A stretch of 64,000 nt of DNA from a virus, in the IMG/VR virus record IMGVR_UViG_3300048883_000431, positions 48,230 to 112,229 of that record; one strand, written 5' to 3'. Below are positions 5,623 through 52,379 of the stretch, piece by piece. A program made the translations under genes and the position numbers. Within the stretch, counting starts at the first letter, position 1. Each line of letters begins with the position of its first letter. The notes under the pieces were generated by a model. It ran no database searches. It was not told the DNA's origin and saw nothing but the letters and a program-made list of their open reading frames with translations.

Positions 5623-5952
5623 ATGGCAAAGTTCCTATCGGGATACGCCTTCACGGTAAAGGCTACCCTCGGACCTGACGGGGACACCCGTGTGGTGAGG
5701 GTTCGGGCGAGCTACACCCTGGCCGACACCGAGGACGAGCGTCTCAGTACCAAGCGCGACCTCGACCTTGTACTGTCCACCGATCCTAGATCGGCGGACG
5801 TGGGCGAGAAGGGCCTCGACATCGAGCCCCCGGATGCGGCGATTGAACGGGGCATCGTGTCCGCCATTGAGAGGTCCATACGTAGGGCGTCCAAGGGGAT
5901 GGAGTCCCTGCCAATACTTGACGACGAGAAGGAGCCTGTGGCGAGGGGATGA
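5623..5952 (+). CDS. Hypothetical protein, 109 aa
   Basis: The ATG at 5623 follows AAGGA with good spacing and starts MAKFLSGYAF; a longer frame upstream overlaps the fibre gene and has no better start. The protein begins with a beta-rich half (FTVKATLGPDGDTRVVRVRA) and ends with a charged helix. It lies in the tail module, so a small tail accessory or chaperone role is possible, but no family is recognised. Its start junction is nearly the same as that of the fibre gene. Confidence 0.7.
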   Translation: MAKFLSGYAFTVKATLGPDGDTRVVRVRASYTLADTEDERLSTKRDLDLVLSTDPRSADVGEKGLDIEPPDAAIERGIVSAIERSIRRASKGMESLPILDDEKEPVARG

Positions 5953-5953
5953 G

Positions 5954-5983
5954 TTGCCGAACGACGTTCCCCCGAGGTATAGT
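5954..5983 (+). promoter_or_regulatory. Weak promoter candidate
   Basis: TTGCCG, an 18-bp spacer and TATAGT lie between the genes at 5623 and 6010. Both hexamers are imperfect, so this is only suggestive. Confidence 0.3.
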
Positions 5984-6009
5984 TCTGCCACACACCACAG
6001 GAGCTCCGA

Positions 6010-6420
6010 ATGAAACCCCTCACGATTCCGCTGTCGCGCCTGATCTTTGGTGAGGGGGATGGCCAAGTCGTACAGCAGAACGACGCGGTCATAGCCCTTC
6101 GCTTCGCGCAGCTTTTCGACTACCTCAAGCACAGTATGGCGGAGAAGCGCGCCGCAATCGAGCTTCGGGACGAGGCCACCCGTGCTGTCGACGGGGAGCT
6201 GGACACCCTGGAGCTCTCCAAAGACGCGGTCAGACTACTGAGTAAGATCTGCGAGTCCCCGATGGACCATCTCAAGGAGAAGACGGCGGTCGGCGCGGAA
6301 GGAATCGACGTCAAGGAGGGATTCCTCAACACCGACACCGCCCAATCCGCTATACTCAGTCTGGAACCAGCCTGCAAGGCCGCGCTGGGGGAAGAGGTAG
6401 CTACCACGGAGGCTGAGTAA
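6010..6420 (+). CDS. Hypothetical helical protein, 136 aa
   Basis: The ATG at 6010 has AGGAG upstream. The protein is largely alpha-helical and acidic at the end. It could be a tail assembly chaperone or accessory protein, judged only by location. It is the last gene of the three-gene block that separates the two LamG fragments, and it ends 2 bases before the start of the second fragment. Confidence 0.7.
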   Translation: MKPLTIPLSRLIFGEGDGQVVQQNDAVIALRFAQLFDYLKHSMAEKRAAIELRDEATRAVDGELDTLELSKDAVRLLSKICESPMDHLKEKTAVGAEGIDVKEGFLNTDTAQSAILSLEPACKAALGEEVATTEAE

Positions 6421-16757: not shown

Positions 16758-17831
16758 TTACTGGAGATCATGGAGCCACCTGTTGAGCTTCTCGGCGTGG
16801 AAGTCCCAGTCGAACAGGGTCTGCGCTATATCGTAGCATCGACGCCCCACGCGGTCAAGCCAGGGAATGTCCGACGTGAGCTCGCGGATGAGTCCAGCAC
16901 AGCTCTCCGGGCTGTTCAGGTCAAACTCGAAGCAGGTCTCGCCGGGGATGAGGTACCTCCCGGCGGTGCGGAAAGCGTAGAACGACTGTGGCACCAGGGC
17001 GGGGCGTCCCGCGTAGACGGTCTGGAGTAGCGAGTGTCCCCACCCCTCGTGCAGCTTCATGTGGAGATTCAGGGAGGTGTCGCGGACCTTCCCCGGAATC
17101 TCGCCCTCGGACAGAAGTTCGGACGCCTCCCCCTCGTTCCCCCCACCGTACAGAAGGAACTCATGTCCAGGAAGCTGCCCCCGCACGGTCTTCCAGTATC
17201 CGTAGGGGTCGTATCGAACCTCGTCGGTGGGTGCCTGGCAGTAGGGGCACTCCCTGGTGTCAAAGTCGTGCTTCACGAACTGCGCGTTGGTCATGTCCGT
17301 AAAGCAGTTGATGAAGGTCCCAATGCGCCGCGCGTTGGCGTGCGTTATGGGGGTATAGGACTCCCCGCACTGGAGGTTGAGCTCCTGGGGGAGCATGATC
17401 TTGCGTACCCCCGGAGGGGCGGCATTGTAGGTGAAGGTGTCCGACGATATTAGGTTCGGGAAGTCCGCCCAGGAGTACTGCGTCCCCTCGTTGCCCGCAT
17501 GGCAGACCATCTTCGCGTTGGGGTGGTACTTGTCCCGCCACTTGGTGAACAGGGGCATGGTGTCGATCCGCGTGCACAGCAGAATGTCCCACTCGGTGTC
17601 TCTGAACTCCGAGAACCCGATGGTCCCGTGCGGCGGCCACCCTTCGCGGTCGGGCCACGCGCCCCAGTCCTTGTCCCACATGCTTTCGTGGAAGATGCCG
17701 CCCCCAAAGGCACGCCACATCGGGGCGAAGGACTCGTCGGGTCCGTAAGCCTCGTGACCGCATCGACCGGACAGGGTGGACAGCAGTCCACGGAACAGTC
17801 CGTAGTGGTGGAAGTCAACGAATATCTTCAC
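16758..17831 (-). CDS. Glycosyltransferase, GT4-like (GT-B)
   Basis: The C-terminal region (GWGHSLLQTVYAGRPALVPQ, then GRYLIPGETCFEFD) matches the donor-binding half of GT4-type GT-B enzymes, where a conserved helix precedes the changed acceptor pocket. I place the start at the GTG at 17831 (VKIFVDFHHYGLF). It overlaps the FkbM stop by GTGA and has AAGGAAGG upstream; a longer frame upstream lies inside the FkbM gene. The protein is 357 aa. The sugar and acceptor cannot be told from sequence. Confidence 0.7.
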   Translation of the reverse strand: MKIFVDFHHYGLFRGLLSTLSGRCGHEAYGPDESFAPMWRAFGGGIFHESMWDKDWGAWPDREGWPPHGTIGFSEFRDTEWDILLCTRIDTMPLFTKWRDKYHPNAKMVCHAGNEGTQYSWADFPNLISSDTFTYNAAPPGVRKIMLPQELNLQCGESYTPITHANARRIGTFINCFTDMTNAQFVKHDFDTRECPYCQAPTDEVRYDPYGYWKTVRGQLPGHEFLLYGGGNEGEASELLSEGEIPGKVRDTSLNLHMKLHEGWGHSLLQTVYAGRPALVPQSFYAFRTAGRYLIPGETCFEFDLNSPESCAGLIRELTSDIPWLDRVGRRCYDIAQTLFDWDFHAEKLNRWLHDLQ

Positions 17832-42520: not shown

Positions 42521-43459
42521 TCACGTGACAAGAGCTTCCCCCTTCTCCGTAAGAACCCGCCCGCGTGGGCTGATGGCCATGAACCCCTCCTGGAGAAGGA
42601 ACGACTCATGAACGTCGCGCAGCGTCTCGGTGTCCAAGGCTACGTATGCCTTAATAGTCGAAAAAGCAGCCCGACCGTTGTTTCCATAGATACATTGTAG
42701 AATCCTACGGTCGATACTGTCAAGCCCAGTTGAGTCGATACCGAGGTCTTCCAGGCACGAAAGTGCAGTTGCCTCGTCCAGATGCCCGTCGTTGAGTACA
42801 ACTGCGAAGTCGTACATCCTACGCGTGAGTCTCTTGGCTATACGCGGTGTCCCGCGCGAGCAACGCCCCACCAGCAGCGGCACTTCCTCGTCGCACGTCC
42901 CGCCCAGCAGGCCCACGTCCCTCGCGGCGATGGTCGCTAGGTCCTCGGGCGAGTAAAACTGCAGCGTGAGGTTGATCCCGAACCTGTCGCGCATGGGGGC
43001 CGCGACCTGCCCCGCGTTCGTCGTCGCGCCTATCACCGTCACCTTGGGGAGCGTGATCCTCATGGGACGGAACCCTGGAATGGACATCGACACCACGCTG
43101 TCCTCCATCACAGGGTAGAGCTGTTCCTGCACTGCGTGGTGGACGCTGTGGATTTCGTCGATGAACACCACATCGCCCCTTCCTACGCCGTCGAGGAATC
43201 CCGCAAGGTCTGAATTCCCGAGCGCCTTACCGATTGTCTCGCGCACTGTTCCGCCGGTCTCGTTGGCTATAACGTATGCGAGCGTCGTCTTGCCCAGTCC
43301 CTTCGGACCCGACAGTAGGACGTGGTCGAGTACCTGTCCGCGCGCGTCGGCGCTAGCCATGTACACAGCTAGGTGCTTCTTGATCGTTGTCTGCCCGACG
43401 ACATCCGCCAGCATCTGTGGCCGGAATGCTGTTGTGTCGACGGGCTGCACGACTGCCAT
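42521..43459 (-). CDS. ruvB: RuvB-like Holliday junction branch-migration ATPase
   Basis: The 312-aa protein is close to full RuvB length (about 336 aa). Walker A is GPKGLGKTT (51-59) and Walker B is VFIDEIH (98-104). The arginine-finger region APMRDRFGINLTL and the C-terminal winged helix (IKAYVALDTETLRDVHESFL, then QEGFMAISPRGR) are both present. RuvB drives branch migration of Holliday junctions and normally works with RuvA and RuvC. Neither is visible here, but a RusA-like resolvase is (34552-35127). The start has AGGAG embedded in the stop of the 34-aa gene. Confidence 0.9.
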   Translation of the reverse strand: MAVVQPVDTTAFRPQMLADVVGQTTIKKHLAVYMASADARGQVLDHVLLSGPKGLGKTTLAYVIANETGGTVRETIGKALGNSDLAGFLDGVGRGDVVFIDEIHSVHHAVQEQLYPVMEDSVVSMSIPGFRPMRITLPKVTVIGATTNAGQVAAPMRDRFGINLTLQFYSPEDLATIAARDVGLLGGTCDEEVPLLVGRCSRGTPRIAKRLTRRMYDFAVVLNDGHLDEATALSCLEDLGIDSTGLDSIDRRILQCIYGNNGRAAFSTIKAYVALDTETLRDVHESFLLQEGFMAISPRGRVLTEKGEALVT

Positions 43460-46231: not shown

Positions 46232-46530
46232 AGGATCATCCCCCTGAATCGAATCTCCAACACGGCGTCCACGGGGATGCTGCGGTAGTTGCGCGCTACC
46301 GTATCCCACACGCACACGAGGCCGTTGTCGAGATTCTGTTGGCGACGCTTCTCCGCCCTCACGGCGTCGAGTTTTGGGTTCTTGGGTCTAACCCCAAGGC
46401 GGCAGACCATGCGACGTTCCGTGCCGTCAGTCCGCTTCGTGAACGTCACTCCGAAGAATGTCCCCCGCGTCGTCTCCCAAAGCGCGTCCTCGAACTGTTC
46501 CGTCTGGTCCCTCAACGACAACGAAGCCAT
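46228..46530 (-). CDS. SH3-fold phage protein (DUF2693-like)
   Basis: The 100-aa protein has GTFFGVTFTKRTDGTERRM followed by CRLGV and, near the end, VWDTVARNYRSIPVDAVLEI, a strand order I recognise from small SH3-like barrels common in phages. They are often RNA- or protein-binding; the exact role is unknown. It overlaps the previous gene by 104 bases in another frame. Confidence 0.6.
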   Translation of the reverse strand: MASLSLRDQTEQFEDALWETTRGTFFGVTFTKRTDGTERRMVCRLGVRPKNPKLDAVRAEKRRQQNLDNGLVCVWDTVARNYRSIPVDAVLEIRFRGMIL

Positions 46531-46711
46531 GGAGAATTCCCTTCCAGTAGCGTTTCTTGTTGTCCAGCAGCCACGACGTGAGGTTGTGCATCGACATCAT
46601 GTTGCTGGTCCGCGTCACCCGGTCCCAGTCCAACATGTTGCAGCCACCGTGCATCCTGATGACCTCGATGTCATTGTAGATGGCCTGCGTTACCTTAGTC
46701 TTCTGTGGCAT
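46427..46711 (-). CDS. DUF5049-like protein with out-of-phase tail
   Basis: Residues 1-62 (KVTQAIYNDIEVIRMHGGCN, MHNLTSWLLDNKKRYWKGIL) resemble the small DUF5049 family found in phages. The last 32 residues read through the start of the next gene in another frame, so the native stop appears displaced. Function unknown. Confidence 0.6.
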   Translation of the reverse strand: MPQKTKVTQAIYNDIEVIRMHGGCNMLDWDRVTRTSNMMSMHNLTSWLLDNKKRYWKGILHGFVVVEGPDGTVRGRALGDDAGDILRSDVHEAD

Positions 46712-47723: not shown

Positions 47724-48779
47724 TTAGAATGGGGTGTAGTTGGGGTCTACGTTGCACTTGAGCGCCATCACCATGTCACTCAGGTTGCCCGTTGTGTGCT
47801 CACACTGACGCTCTATGGCCACGGCCTCCTCGTGGCCCTTCACCCCCATAGCCCGATGCAGCACGGTTGCAAGGGCTGTCATGGCCACCTTGTGCTCTGG
47901 CCGCGCCCGCTCGCCGTCCATGATCGTGGGCTGGTTGGGGTCGGGCTCCTTGACCTCGCACATCACTGGCGGCATCTCTACCCCGGTGACCCCCGTGCAG
48001 ACATCGGCCCACGCCGCGATGAATGTCTCCTTCAGGCAGGGGCTTTCCCAGATATACCCGAGGTCCTCGTGGAGGGAGTCCTCGAAGTAAGCGGACGCGT
48101 TCTCCTCGTGCCAGTGGCGCATGTGCGGGTCTGGCTTGACTAGGGGATGCCGCGCCACCCAGTACTCGGCCCACTGGACGCCCTTGTCGTGGGCCAGGTC
48201 GCCATCCATACTCTCGCACGCCTTGGGGACTCCCCACTCCTCGTGGTTCTGATCCAGACAGTCGGAGCACACGTCGCCCTCGCTGCACCCGCTGTAGGCG
48301 ATGGGCGTGTCGGTCTCTTCCAGGTAGATCAGGTCGTTATCGTCCTCGAAGAACTCCTCGCACGCCATACACGAGTGACCGCACGCGCACTCGTCGCACC
48401 ATATCTGTCCGTACTGGTTGCGGTGGTAGATGCTATCGTCATCGACACCGGCCTCGCAGACCACGCATATCTCGTTGGATTCTATGTCGAGCCGATGGGA
48501 GATGAAGTCACGAGTGCGCTGCGAGTAGTTCTTGAAGTGGTCCACGACGTAGCCCTCGTCGTCGTCGAGGTCCCAGGTCCGGGTGTTGGTCGAGCCCCCA
48601 TGTCGGCAATGTGCGCCGACCACGCACTCCGTAAGGAGCCACGCCACCTGGTAGCTGTTCACTTCCCTGTCCAGCTTGGTCTCGAAGCAGTAGATCTCCT
48701 CGTTGTCGTTGACGGCGAACAGAAGCTCATCCCCGTGGTCCCGGCGGTAGAGTATCAGCGCCGAGTCTGACATTGCCAT
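47724..48779 (-). CDS. Cys-rich zinc-binding protein, 351 aa
   Basis: The protein has a cluster of CxxC pairs: ICVVCEAGV, IWCDECACGHSCMACEEFF and GDVCSDCLDQ (roughly residues 95-185), consistent with two or more zinc sites. The flanking parts are acidic. Such proteins may bind nucleic acid or act as transcription or assembly adaptors. I choose the ATG at 48779. A 19-codon frame with a good Shine-Dalgarno sequence (48781-48840) ends two bases before it and could be a leader peptide. The gene lies directly downstream of the tmRNA-like RNA. Confidence 0.7.
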   Translation of the reverse strand: MAMSDSALILYRRDHGDELLFAVNDNEEIYCFETKLDREVNSYQVAWLLTECVVGAHCRHGGSTNTRTWDLDDDEGYVVDHFKNYSQRTRDFISHRLDIESNEICVVCEAGVDDDSIYHRNQYGQIWCDECACGHSCMACEEFFEDDNDLIYLEETDTPIAYSGCSEGDVCSDCLDQNHEEWGVPKACESMDGDLAHDKGVQWAEYWVARHPLVKPDPHMRHWHEENASAYFEDSLHEDLGYIWESPCLKETFIAAWADVCTGVTGVEMPPVMCEVKEPDPNQPTIMDGERARPEHKVAMTALATVLHRAMGVKGHEEAVAIERQCEHTTGNLSDMVMALKCNVDPNYTPF

Positions 48780-48864
48780 GCTATTGTCCCAGCCCTTGTC
48801 CAGTTTCGCTACCATGTCCGCAAGTGAGACGCCCGAGCATTCGCTTTCCTCTCGCTCCGATGTG

Positions 48865-48940
48865 TGGTGGAGGCGGGGGGAGTTGAACCCCCGTCCGCAG
48901 CGTGCTCGGATGCGTTGCTACGTCGAAACACGTCGCCCCC
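48865..48940 (-). ncRNA. 76-nt tmRNA-like RNA (tRNA-like domain only)
   Basis: Reading on the minus strand, the 76 nt start GGGGGCG and end CGCCTCC plus ACCA. These 7-bp acceptor strands pair fully, with a G-U at position 3, the identity mark for alanyl-tRNA synthetase. A perfect 5-bp T-stem (GGGGG/CCCCC) encloses the T-loop TTCAACT. The segment GTTTCGAC after the acceptor matches the conserved 5' tmRNA motif, and GGACGGGGGTTCAACT matches the 3' tmRNA sequence. Only 41 nt separate the acceptor and T-arm, with a 5-6 bp stem (GTAGC/GCTGC) around a 15-nt loop. There is no room for a tag reading frame or pseudoknots. A canonical tRNA fold (7-nt anticodon loop with U33) was not found. The RNA begins 15 nt after a gene stop. 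Confidence 0.65.
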
Positions 48941-48954
48941 ACTATCGACGATAC

Positions 48955-49497
48955 CTACGCCGTCTGCCCACGTCGGCTTTCAGGTATCCTATCGAAATCG
49001 AAGTCCTCCGGGATGTCGGGCATCTGGTCGGGGTCTATCTGCTTCCCGAACAGCTCCGACATGCTCCGGGCCACGGGGTTCACGGGCCGTTCCTCCGTGG
49101 TCCCTGGCCCCACGTCCTCGCGGAGCGCGTCCCTGAAGGGAACGCCAAGATCGAACATGCTGATGTGCAACAGGGCGTCCATTTCACTACTCGGTGCCAC
49201 CCCGAGGTGGACGTCGTCGCAGTTGTCGCAGATCAACGCGGCGCGGATATGGTAGGTCACCATCGCACGCCCTGCGGCGTCGGGGAAGATGAGCGTGGCC
49301 TGCTCGTCCAGGGAGTCGAGCGACATCTCGTCCGCCTTGGCCAGATGTCCGTGGTAGTTCCCAACGGTCAGCTTGATCGGGACGCTCCCGATAAACCCGG
49401 CGAATCTGCACACCACGCTCACCTTGGTGTCTCCGTCCTTCACGGTCTCCATGAATGTGAGCAGGTCCCGGAACGTATACGTGCCCCTAGTAGTCAT
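48955..49497 (-). CDS. Hypothetical protein, 180 aa
   Basis: Beta-rich N-terminal half (DGDTKVSVVCRFAGFIG, PIKLTVGNYHGHL) and an acidic C-terminal half. It sits between the VWA gene and the tmRNA-like RNA. No family is recognised. Confidence 0.65.
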   Translation of the reverse strand: MTTRGTYTFRDLLTFMETVKDGDTKVSVVCRFAGFIGSVPIKLTVGNYHGHLAKADEMSLDSLDEQATLIFPDAAGRAMVTYHIRAALICDNCDDVHLGVAPSSEMDALLHISMFDLGVPFRDALREDVGPGTTEERPVNPVARSMSELFGKQIDPDQMPDIPEDFDFDRIPESRRGQTA

Positions 49498-50903: not shown

Positions 50904-52379
50904 CTATGCGAGTGACGTGGCCTTGGAGATGGCGCTCGTCTTGACGTTCGCCGCTGTCTCCTTGAGGGACTTCAACGAGTCCCACATTTGGTCGCTTGCC
51001 TGCACACTTTCGAGGGACACGATGACCCGTTCGAGCTCACGTGCCCATTGCAGGCACTCGACGGCCTTGTCGGTCTGTGTGACCTCACCGACGATGACCT
51101 TGAGCTCCTCCTCGATCTTGTCCAGCACAGCCTGGCACTTCGCGGACTCGCGCGCCTTCTCGGCTTCCGCCAGTATCGTGTCGCCCAGCGACTCCAGCCC
51201 GGCGACGAACCGTAACGCTGCCAGGTTATCGTTCGACTTGCCCTCGGCGTCCTCGATGGCCTTGAGGATTTCGTAGGCGTAGACCGCCGTTCGCGGGCTG
51301 ATGAACTGCCCGCCGTCTACCGCACGGGACACCAGGGATACCAGCATGTTCGCTGTCTCCCCCCGGAACCCAAGTACGTTGTAGAGCAAACGGTAGTCCT
51401 CCAGCGTGTAGCTGGCCCACTTCACTTCGAGTTGAAGCGGGAAGCGTTCAACGAGTGCGTGCGCCGACGCGCCCAGGTCGCTGATTTCCGACGGTGTGCG
51501 GTTAGTGATGGCGATGATGCACTTCGTAGCCATCGTGAATCGCTGCGCGCCGTTACGAAGCTCCCGCGCGGTCAGCGTGTCCTTGAGGGACAACAGGACC
51601 GACGGCGGCGCGTCGAACAGCTCCTCGAACACCGCGTACTTGGACGCCAAGAACGAGCGCTCCGGGTTGTATTCAAGCACCTTCTCGCTGTCCAGGCGCG
51701 CGAAGTCGAGGCCGCCGAACATCTTGGCCTCGTCCATCCCCTCGCCGAAGAACTGCACGAAGCACTCTTCCGGCGCGAACTTGTCCATCACTGCCTGGAC
51801 CATCACGCTCTTGCCGTGTCCGGCCGGGCCATACAGTAGGAGGTTGCGGCCGCTCGTCATCGCTGACGATACCGCGTCCGCTACGTCCTCACTGTGGATG
51901 AACCCCGCGCTCAGTTCCGATCTCACCGATGCCCGCATGGGGGCAGCTCCTGTCTTCTTGGTTGATGTAGGCGTTTTCTTCAGCACCACCTCTTTGGTGG
52001 GGCGTACCTGGTGTGCGTCGTCGCCCGCTCCGCTACGGAGTGCGAGTTCATCGACCGCCTCGATGTTAGTGCCAACGACTAGGTGAATGACGAGCTCCGA
52101 ACCGTCTGACACGTCCTTGAAGTCCCACCGTAGTCCGTCCGCCCAGTCGGCCTGCGCCCTGCAAATCATCTCCAAGGGGAGGCCGTCGGGGGTGTAGAGC
52201 GTAGCGCATACCTCACGCATCCCCGACACGTTGAGTTTGAAGGCGTAGCCGCCACCGTCCTCGACGTAGAACCTCCTGCACACCCACTCCGGTGGCGTTC
52301 CACCGTGGTGCAGCCAGTTCTTCGTCTCCGCGAAGTGACCGTCGGCTAGTGCGAGGACATGATGTCCCGAGAATTTCAC
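50904..52379 (-). CDS. MoxR/CobS-like AAA+ ATPase
   Basis: The 491-aa protein has Walker A GPAGHGKS at residues 184-191. A Walker B-type VFEELFDAPP and a sensor region CIIAITNRTPSEI follow, then a helical lid (SPRTAVYAYEILKAIEDA). The N-terminal 150 residues are a separate beta-rich domain followed by a Lys/Thr linker (VVLKKTPTSTKKTG). It precedes the VWA gene, so the two likely form a chaperone-like complex. It shares an exact 35-bp segment with the gene at 52453. A near-consensus promoter lies directly upstream. Confidence 0.8.
   Translation of the reverse strand: MKFSGHHVLALADGHFAETKNWLHHGGTPPEWVCRRFYVEDGGGYAFKLNVSGMREVCATLYTPDGLPLEMICRAQADWADGLRWDFKDVSDGSELVIHLVVGTNIEAVDELALRSGAGDDAHQVRPTKEVVLKKTPTSTKKTGAAPMRASVRSELSAGFIHSEDVADAVSSAMTSGRNLLLYGPAGHGKSVMVQAVMDKFAPEECFVQFFGEGMDEAKMFGGLDFARLDSEKVLEYNPERSFLASKYAVFEELFDAPPSVLLSLKDTLTARELRNGAQRFTMATKCIIAITNRTPSEISDLGASAHALVERFPLQLEVKWASYTLEDYRLLYNVLGFRGETANMLVSLVSRAVDGGQFISPRTAVYAYEILKAIEDAEGKSNDNLAALRFVAGLESLGDTILAEAEKARESAKCQAVLDKIEEELKVIVGEVTQTDKAVECLQWARELERVIVSLESVQASDQMWDSLKSLKETAANVKTSAISKATSLA
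52030..52064 (-). repeat. 35-bp exact direct repeat, copy A
   Basis: Identical over 35 bp to 52958-52992, same orientation and same frame; it encodes IEAVDELALRSG-type sequence inside the MoxR-like ATPase. Confidence 0.9.

Follow-up and report, generated by a model that had tools for sequence, protein, structure and literature searches.

The locus considered here raises two questions: whether 76 nt of phage DNA encode a tmRNA stripped of its message, and what such an RNA might do during infection. An earlier note, made from the letters alone, had described the element as a phage-encoded tmRNA-like RNA lacking the mRNA domain. Sequence, Rfam, a family covariance model and compensatory changes all bear out that description, and on this sequence evidence we conclude that the RNA is a genuine TLD-only tmRNA.

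Anatomy and phage setting of the RNA

The window, by which we mean the whole 64,000-nt stretch analysed, covers bases 48230-112229 of a source record of 112,229 bases. The attribution to a phage is well founded: genes for terminase, portal, capsid protein and DNA polymerase lie on the same contig, the record also encodes a head protease, a major capsid protein and a head-tail adaptor, and tail genes inside the window identify the phage as tailed. Its terminase has only one identical fragment among viral contigs, and the best cultured-phage matches are about 25% identical; as far as sequence comparison reaches, the phage is without close cultured relatives. One tRNA gene (Met) occurs in the remainder of the record outside the window. 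SmpB is absent from the record, as is a tyrosine integrase (PF00589), in a search of the whole record that covered the tyrosine type only.

The coordinates given for the element, 48865-48940, are exact, and to them we add the minus strand (48940→48865; RNA position p is window position 48941-p). Two minus-strand genes that run in the same direction leave a 139-nt gap, which the RNA gene occupies from 14 nt past the stop of the upstream gene to 49 nt before the downstream ORF. Both flanking ORFs are regarded as coding because of their codon-position GC (0.61/0.39-0.42/0.83-0.84), and the 363-aa one has no relative in IMG/VR viral contigs. A scan for promoters and terminators around the RNA found none; read-through and excision are therefore presumed, by inference. 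The features of the locus are as follows.

48955-49497, minus: upstream co-directional gene, 180 aa, no Pfam match; codon-position GC 0.61/0.42/0.83
48865-48940, minus: predicted TLD-only tmRNA gene, 76 nt including the encoded CCA; RF00023 63.8 bits, family model R1 56.2 bits (E 9e-11)
48934-48940, minus: acceptor stem 5' strand GGGGGCG (RNA 1-7), carrying G3 of G3·U70; 7/7 pairs with 48869-48875
48923-48933, minus: single-stranded D-loop segment ACGUGUUUCGA, without a D stem; family column statistics
48917-48922, minus: P2 helix 5' strand CGUAGC; MFE fold and family P2 pairing
48902-48916, minus: apical segment AACGCAUCCGAGCAC, 15 nt, in place of the whole mRNA-like domain and pseudoknots
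48896-48901, minus: P2 helix 3' strand GCUGCG; MFE fold
48876-48892, minus: T-arm GGGGG-UUCAACU-CCCCC; from the sequence
48869-48875, minus: acceptor stem 3' strand CGCCUCC (with U70); pairing and family covariation
48865-48868, minus: discriminator A73 and encoded CCA; from the sequence
47724-48815, minus: downstream co-directional gene, 363 aa, no Pfam match; codon-position GC 0.61/0.39/0.84

From 5' to 3' the RNA thus consists of acceptor, ACGUGUUUCGA, P2, AACGCAUCCGAGCAC, P2', GAC, T-arm, acceptor, A73 and CCA. The parts named in the earlier note are found on the minus strand as described: the acceptor with G3-U70 forms 7/7 pairs, the T-arm, the TTTCGAC motif and the ACCA end are all present, and acceptor and T-stem are separated by 41 nt, filled by the D-loop, P2, the 15-nt loop and GAC. 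No tag frame exists, the mRNA-like domain (resume codon, tag, stop) being absent, and there is likewise no pseudoknot, as PK1-PK4 have no room and the interior of the RF00023 model is deleted. A feature missing from the earlier description is the 6-bp P2 helix (CGUAGC/GCUGCG), which closes the middle of the RNA in the MFE fold, where acceptor, P2 and T-arm all form as expected. The thermodynamic z-score of the single RNA is -1.7, which is weak by itself.

An Rfam search, which the earlier note had proposed as a check, was run with cmscan and returned tmRNA (RF00023) at 63.8 bits (gathering threshold 47; E 1.4e-22), in an alignment that extends to both model ends (1 and 374) but leaves out the interior. 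Even in a search below threshold, the tmRNA model remained the clan winner and no tRNA was reported. A canonical tRNA with a normal anticodon loop, which would have refuted the proposal, was not recovered by ARAGORN, by the Rfam clan or by the fold: the RNA lacks the D stem and the anticodon arm with a 7-nt loop of a canonical tRNA-Ala, and ARAGORN called neither a tRNA nor a tmRNA in the whole window. A permuted two-piece tmRNA (RF04321) was also considered and rejected; it scores 30.2 bits, below the threshold of 47, and the TLD halves occur in standard order, not 3' half first.

Elsewhere on the minus strand of the window, 42521-43459 encodes a phage RuvB-like Holliday junction helicase (RuvB_N 161 bits, with lid and C domains), and 50904-52379, two genes upstream of the RNA, encodes a MoxR-type AAA ATPase (bpMoxR), a possible component of a ternary system.

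A family of viral TLD-only RNAs

Relatives were sought in a structural scan of IMG/VR, GTDB and phage records using a degenerate pattern (UUCGA, 14-44 nt, GGAC and a T-arm). Matches then had to pass a strict filter, a fully paired 7-bp acceptor and, in the last count, a GGG start; GTDB matches in archaeal and many other contigs were discarded because acceptor pairing was absent. The strict set of short RNAs, here called minis, held at least 61 distinct sequences at first and at least 91 after further scans. G3·U70 is present in 91/91 distinct strict minis among the matches listed, a feature that the first pattern had left free. These matches represent at least 136 loci and at least about 66 lineages, with contigs that have a common neighbour protein above 80% identity counted once. 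The shortest mini (L201, 737-803), with 32 nt from acceptor to T-stem, belongs to an Anaerolineae MAG that also encodes a full tmRNA and SmpB.

A covariance model, R1, trained on 20 minis with the window RNA left out, scores the latter at 56.2 bits (E 9e-11 in 835 kb), within the range of family members (50-97 bits) and above tRNA-type matches (at most 35.5 bits). Base pairs were counted over 79 distinct sequences in alignment A4, which was fitted to R1 and so leans towards the structure, hence the use of slid controls; a MAFFT alignment, A1, was kept out of these counts because it misaligned the 5' acceptor strand. Paired cells amount to 97.0%, against 42-55% (maximum 54.8%) in the slid controls, two-sided changes occupy 476 cells, where no slid control exceeds 94, and the covariation score reaches 0.658, the controls staying at or below 0.088.

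The acceptor stem is 100% paired across the family. Positions 4-6 vary freely yet always pair, whereas G1-C72, G2-C71 and G3·U70 (79/79) never change, as expected from selection for an alanine-charged tRNA-like end. P2 cells are 93.9% paired, with compensatory changes in 6/7 pairs, and T-stem pairs covary at the first two positions. Most members have P2 capped by a conserved RAAA/hairpin element (CCG-CAYG-CGG), and the hairpin itself contains compensatory changes. This RAAANCCGCAYGCGG cap is common but not universal, being absent in L135, L201 and the window RNA, whose apical segment AACGCAUCCGAGCAC is shorter and does not form the hairpin. In the D-loop of the window RNA, moreover, U replaces the first G of a GG motif that is near-invariant in the family (75/80). 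Given this substitution and the missing cap, we consider the RNA a divergent family member.

RNAs of this kind are already known. The tmRNA of mycobacteriophage DS6A is listed as 'TLD only' (PMC4131195, PMC11915505), and a 2025 tmRNA database includes 9 standard-form CDS-less entries among 97,179 sequences, and its text names one phage case (PMC11915505). The window RNA is thus a new and divergent member of a kind hitherto represented by a single named phage and a few genes from organelles. It resembles the DS6A RNA in being phage-encoded, with little beyond the TLD and no tag reading frame, but occurs in an unrelated 112-kb phage and is part of a family of about 66 lineages (its sequence was not compared with that of DS6A). 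It shares with standard tmRNA (RF00023) the G3·U70 acceptor, the stemless D-loop with UUCGAC, the T-arm, the GGAC junction, P2 and CCA, but not the mRNA-like domain, tag or pseudoknots, and is 76 nt long rather than several hundred. Among organellar forms, the CDS-less plastid tmRNAs of Mallomonadaceae (about 65 bp) also lack a tag frame and are similar in size, but consist of two sequences, neither from a phage (PMC11915505). Mitochondrial tmRNA (RF02544) has likewise lost the tag frame and kept the TLD together with SmpB, though it too is organellar and its gene is usually permuted. Full-length phage tmRNAs (for example in Streptomyces BE1 phages such as Riptide) are similarly phage-encoded, in tRNA-gene-rich phages, but contain a tag, making trans-translation possible; a mini cannot tag.

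What is new is the breadth of TLD-only RNAs, with at least 91 distinct RNAs from about 66 lineages sharing one covariation-supported fold. Neither this breadth nor the common P2 cap, the position beside the capsid gene described below or the Streptomyces hosts were found in the literature searched, a scope that left out subscription journals and most preprints. The earlier note had missed both the DS6A precedent and the membership in a widespread viral family.

Genomic settings of the relatives

Some minis are associated with tRNA genes. Five (L028, L049, L061, L111 and L114) are separated from a tRNA gene by no more than a few nt, and others are part of the tRNA arrays of the isolated Streptomyces phages LuckySocke, BRock, pSt2308, Alone3, Shaeky and Riptide, the minis of Riptide and Alone3 being partly degenerate; they should therefore be processed like tRNAs. 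Phage RNA ligase genes are found near the minis of LuckySocke, BRock, pSt2308 and Alone3. A further mini, in Streptomyces phage GiJojo, is known from a BLAST match only. None of the seven phage records annotates its mini as a tmRNA.

In about 20 related contigs (L029, L047, L060, L068, L080 and relatives), the mini follows the head protease gene and shares its strand with the major-capsid gene, which in most cases lies 80-124 nt further downstream. The head operon implies very high late transcription, a location that, we infer, would suit a stoichiometric decoy. In the third setting, which includes the window RNA, minis occur elsewhere with unrelated neighbours, which argues for a trans-acting RNA. 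A common partner gene was looked for and rejected; neighbour clusters spanning several lineages comprise terminase, portal, protease, capsid and head-tail adaptor, that is, head-operon genes.

SmpB was found in 0/20 mini-bearing phage records, and since the window record also lacks it, the partner must be the SmpB of the host. Full-length tmRNA and SmpB are also present in 5/6 cellular genomes containing a mini. Of five pairs of mini and host tmRNA compared, four (L316/L182, L313/L211, L314/L155 and L312/L201) have different acceptor stems, so the minis are no recent duplicates of host ssrA; in the fifth (L315/L194), mini and host tmRNA have the same acceptor strand, GGGGCUG. Minis also occur in cyanobacterial assemblies (L187, on a 130-kb contig of Prochlorococcus SAG AG-409-P03, and L155/L194), indicating that hosts are not actinobacteria alone.

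Two records, G008 and Streptomyces phage Riptide, contain a mini together with a full-length tmRNA. The former is the 123-kb phage contig IMGVR_UViG_3300025362_000004, with its mini (L040) at 46486-46567 and its full-length tmRNA (L310) at 77588-77979, the latter with an atypical ARAGORN tag, SPEYRIRLLTNTKW*. In Riptide, the full tmRNA (L311, 863-1129) has the tag ANSKFAFALAA, and the unannotated mini (L259, 1477-1556) is degenerate, with UUAGAU for UUCGAC, yet keeps the conserved P2 cap.

Possible functions

The mechanism we favour, at little better than even confidence, is a decoy for SmpB and trans-translation; expression, processing, charging, SmpB binding and inhibition are inferred, as no expression or binding data exist. 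The RNA would be co-transcribed with the flanking minus-strand phage genes and excised by host tRNA-processing enzymes. Charging by AlaRS is specified by G3·U70 and A73, through which the host enzyme would load the RNA with alanine. Host SmpB and EF-Tu would bind it and, for lack of a resume codon, a tag and a pseudoknot ring, it would compete with host tmRNA for SmpB and stalled ribosomes; trans-translation (tagging and mRNA decay) would be reduced during infection. SmpB binds the TLD elbow, for which loop-loop contacts are required (PMC3968760), and an RNA that keeps the TLD parts without the message should compete for both SmpB and stalled ribosomes. According to papers that cite the original work (Mao 2009), an RNA similar to that of DS6A strongly inhibits tmRNA whether chargeable or not, perhaps through SmpB titration (PMC4131195, PMC11915505). 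The retained TLD parts, the DS6A precedent and this reported inhibition are among the reasons for our preference. The strongest objection, which we count against the decoy, is the presence of mini and full-length tmRNA in the same record (G008, Riptide), unexpected under simple SmpB titration unless timing differs. The window RNA itself could bind SmpB more weakly than its relatives, since loop-loop contacts matter for binding (PMC3968760) and its D-loop has U for G, although there are no binding data.

By extension, TLD-only tmRNAs may constitute a widespread phage RNA anti-trans-translation factor. Such a factor would mimic Ala-tmRNA without its message, be supplied in many copies by tRNA arrays or head operons, and either block the ribosome rescue of the host or divert it; this generalization is tentative, and our confidence in it falls just short of even. 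No other general RNA inhibitor of ribosome rescue is known to us from viruses.

The same conserved parts permit a different outcome, in which the alanine-charged mini, with SmpB and EF-Tu, enters stalled ribosomes and takes the peptide, after which the ribosome is split or the peptide freed without tagging or proteolysis, preserving phage proteins or the ribosome supply. All charging and SmpB-side features are kept in the family, mitochondria retain tmRNAs devoid of a tag frame alongside SmpB, presumably to help deal with incomplete mRNAs (PMC11915505), and the full-length tmRNAs of G008 and Riptide are easier to reconcile with such rescue. We nonetheless think it unlikely, as no route is known for release without a template stop codon and the activity reported for a similar RNA is inhibition (PMC4131195). 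The strictly conserved alanine identity and elbow might instead serve a sink or decoy for a target other than SmpB, either AlaRS/EF-Tu or a host defence nuclease that attacks tRNAs by reading the acceptor or elbow. Effectors that cleave tRNA tails exist (PMC12851939), and arrays of tRNA genes close to phage RNA ligases have been linked to defences that attack tRNAs. One more ordinary tRNA-Ala would suffice for this purpose, however, and conservation of the tmRNA-specific UUCGAC and of the absence of D and anticodon arms points to SmpB, making such a target quite improbable.

A role in cis, with RNase P or 3' processing separating neighbouring phage mRNAs and forming, for example, the 5' end of the capsid-gene mRNA, would fit the many minis 80-124 nt upstream of a major capsid gene on the same strand and the window RNA between its two co-directional genes. 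Other minis belong to tRNA arrays or have unrelated neighbours in still other places, and G3·U70 and UUCGAC, both essentially invariant, are not needed for processing; we regard this role as very improbable. That the locus is an attP remnant, a phage copy of the host ssrA 3' end used in integration, is scarcely credible. The gene ssrA is a common integration site, and the T-arm/acceptor stretch has a match in the integrase region of a Moorella phage, but an att site should keep the T-arm end only, whereas here both RNA ends are present and paired; the record lacks a tyrosine integrase, the family covaries, and a mini occurs in BRock, which is reported as probably virulent (PMC7453282). Equally little weight attaches to a degenerate or D-armless tRNA-Ala, suggested by the tRNA-like length of 76 nt and by G3·U70: ARAGORN finds none, tmRNA wins the Rfam clan, the 7-bp family P2 with its C(NN)G tetraloop cap leaves no anticodon loop, and no conserved codon-reading loop was seen across the relatives.

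With the SmpB decoy as the favoured mechanism, the question raised is whether phages attack or rewire trans-translation by means of a decoy RNA, and what was a curiosity becomes a family open to direct tests in laboratory phages. The TLD-only class is missed by standard annotation (ARAGORN). In L128, an ARAGORN full-tmRNA call at 5905-6228 (tag AWDYNPMWVQCSA) has its 3' end in common with a mini; the call is probably false and is an annotation hazard. In GiJojo (PP725410.1), the annotation places a hypothetical protein (gene 44), probably a spurious ORF, on top of the mini-tmRNA at 17025-17103.
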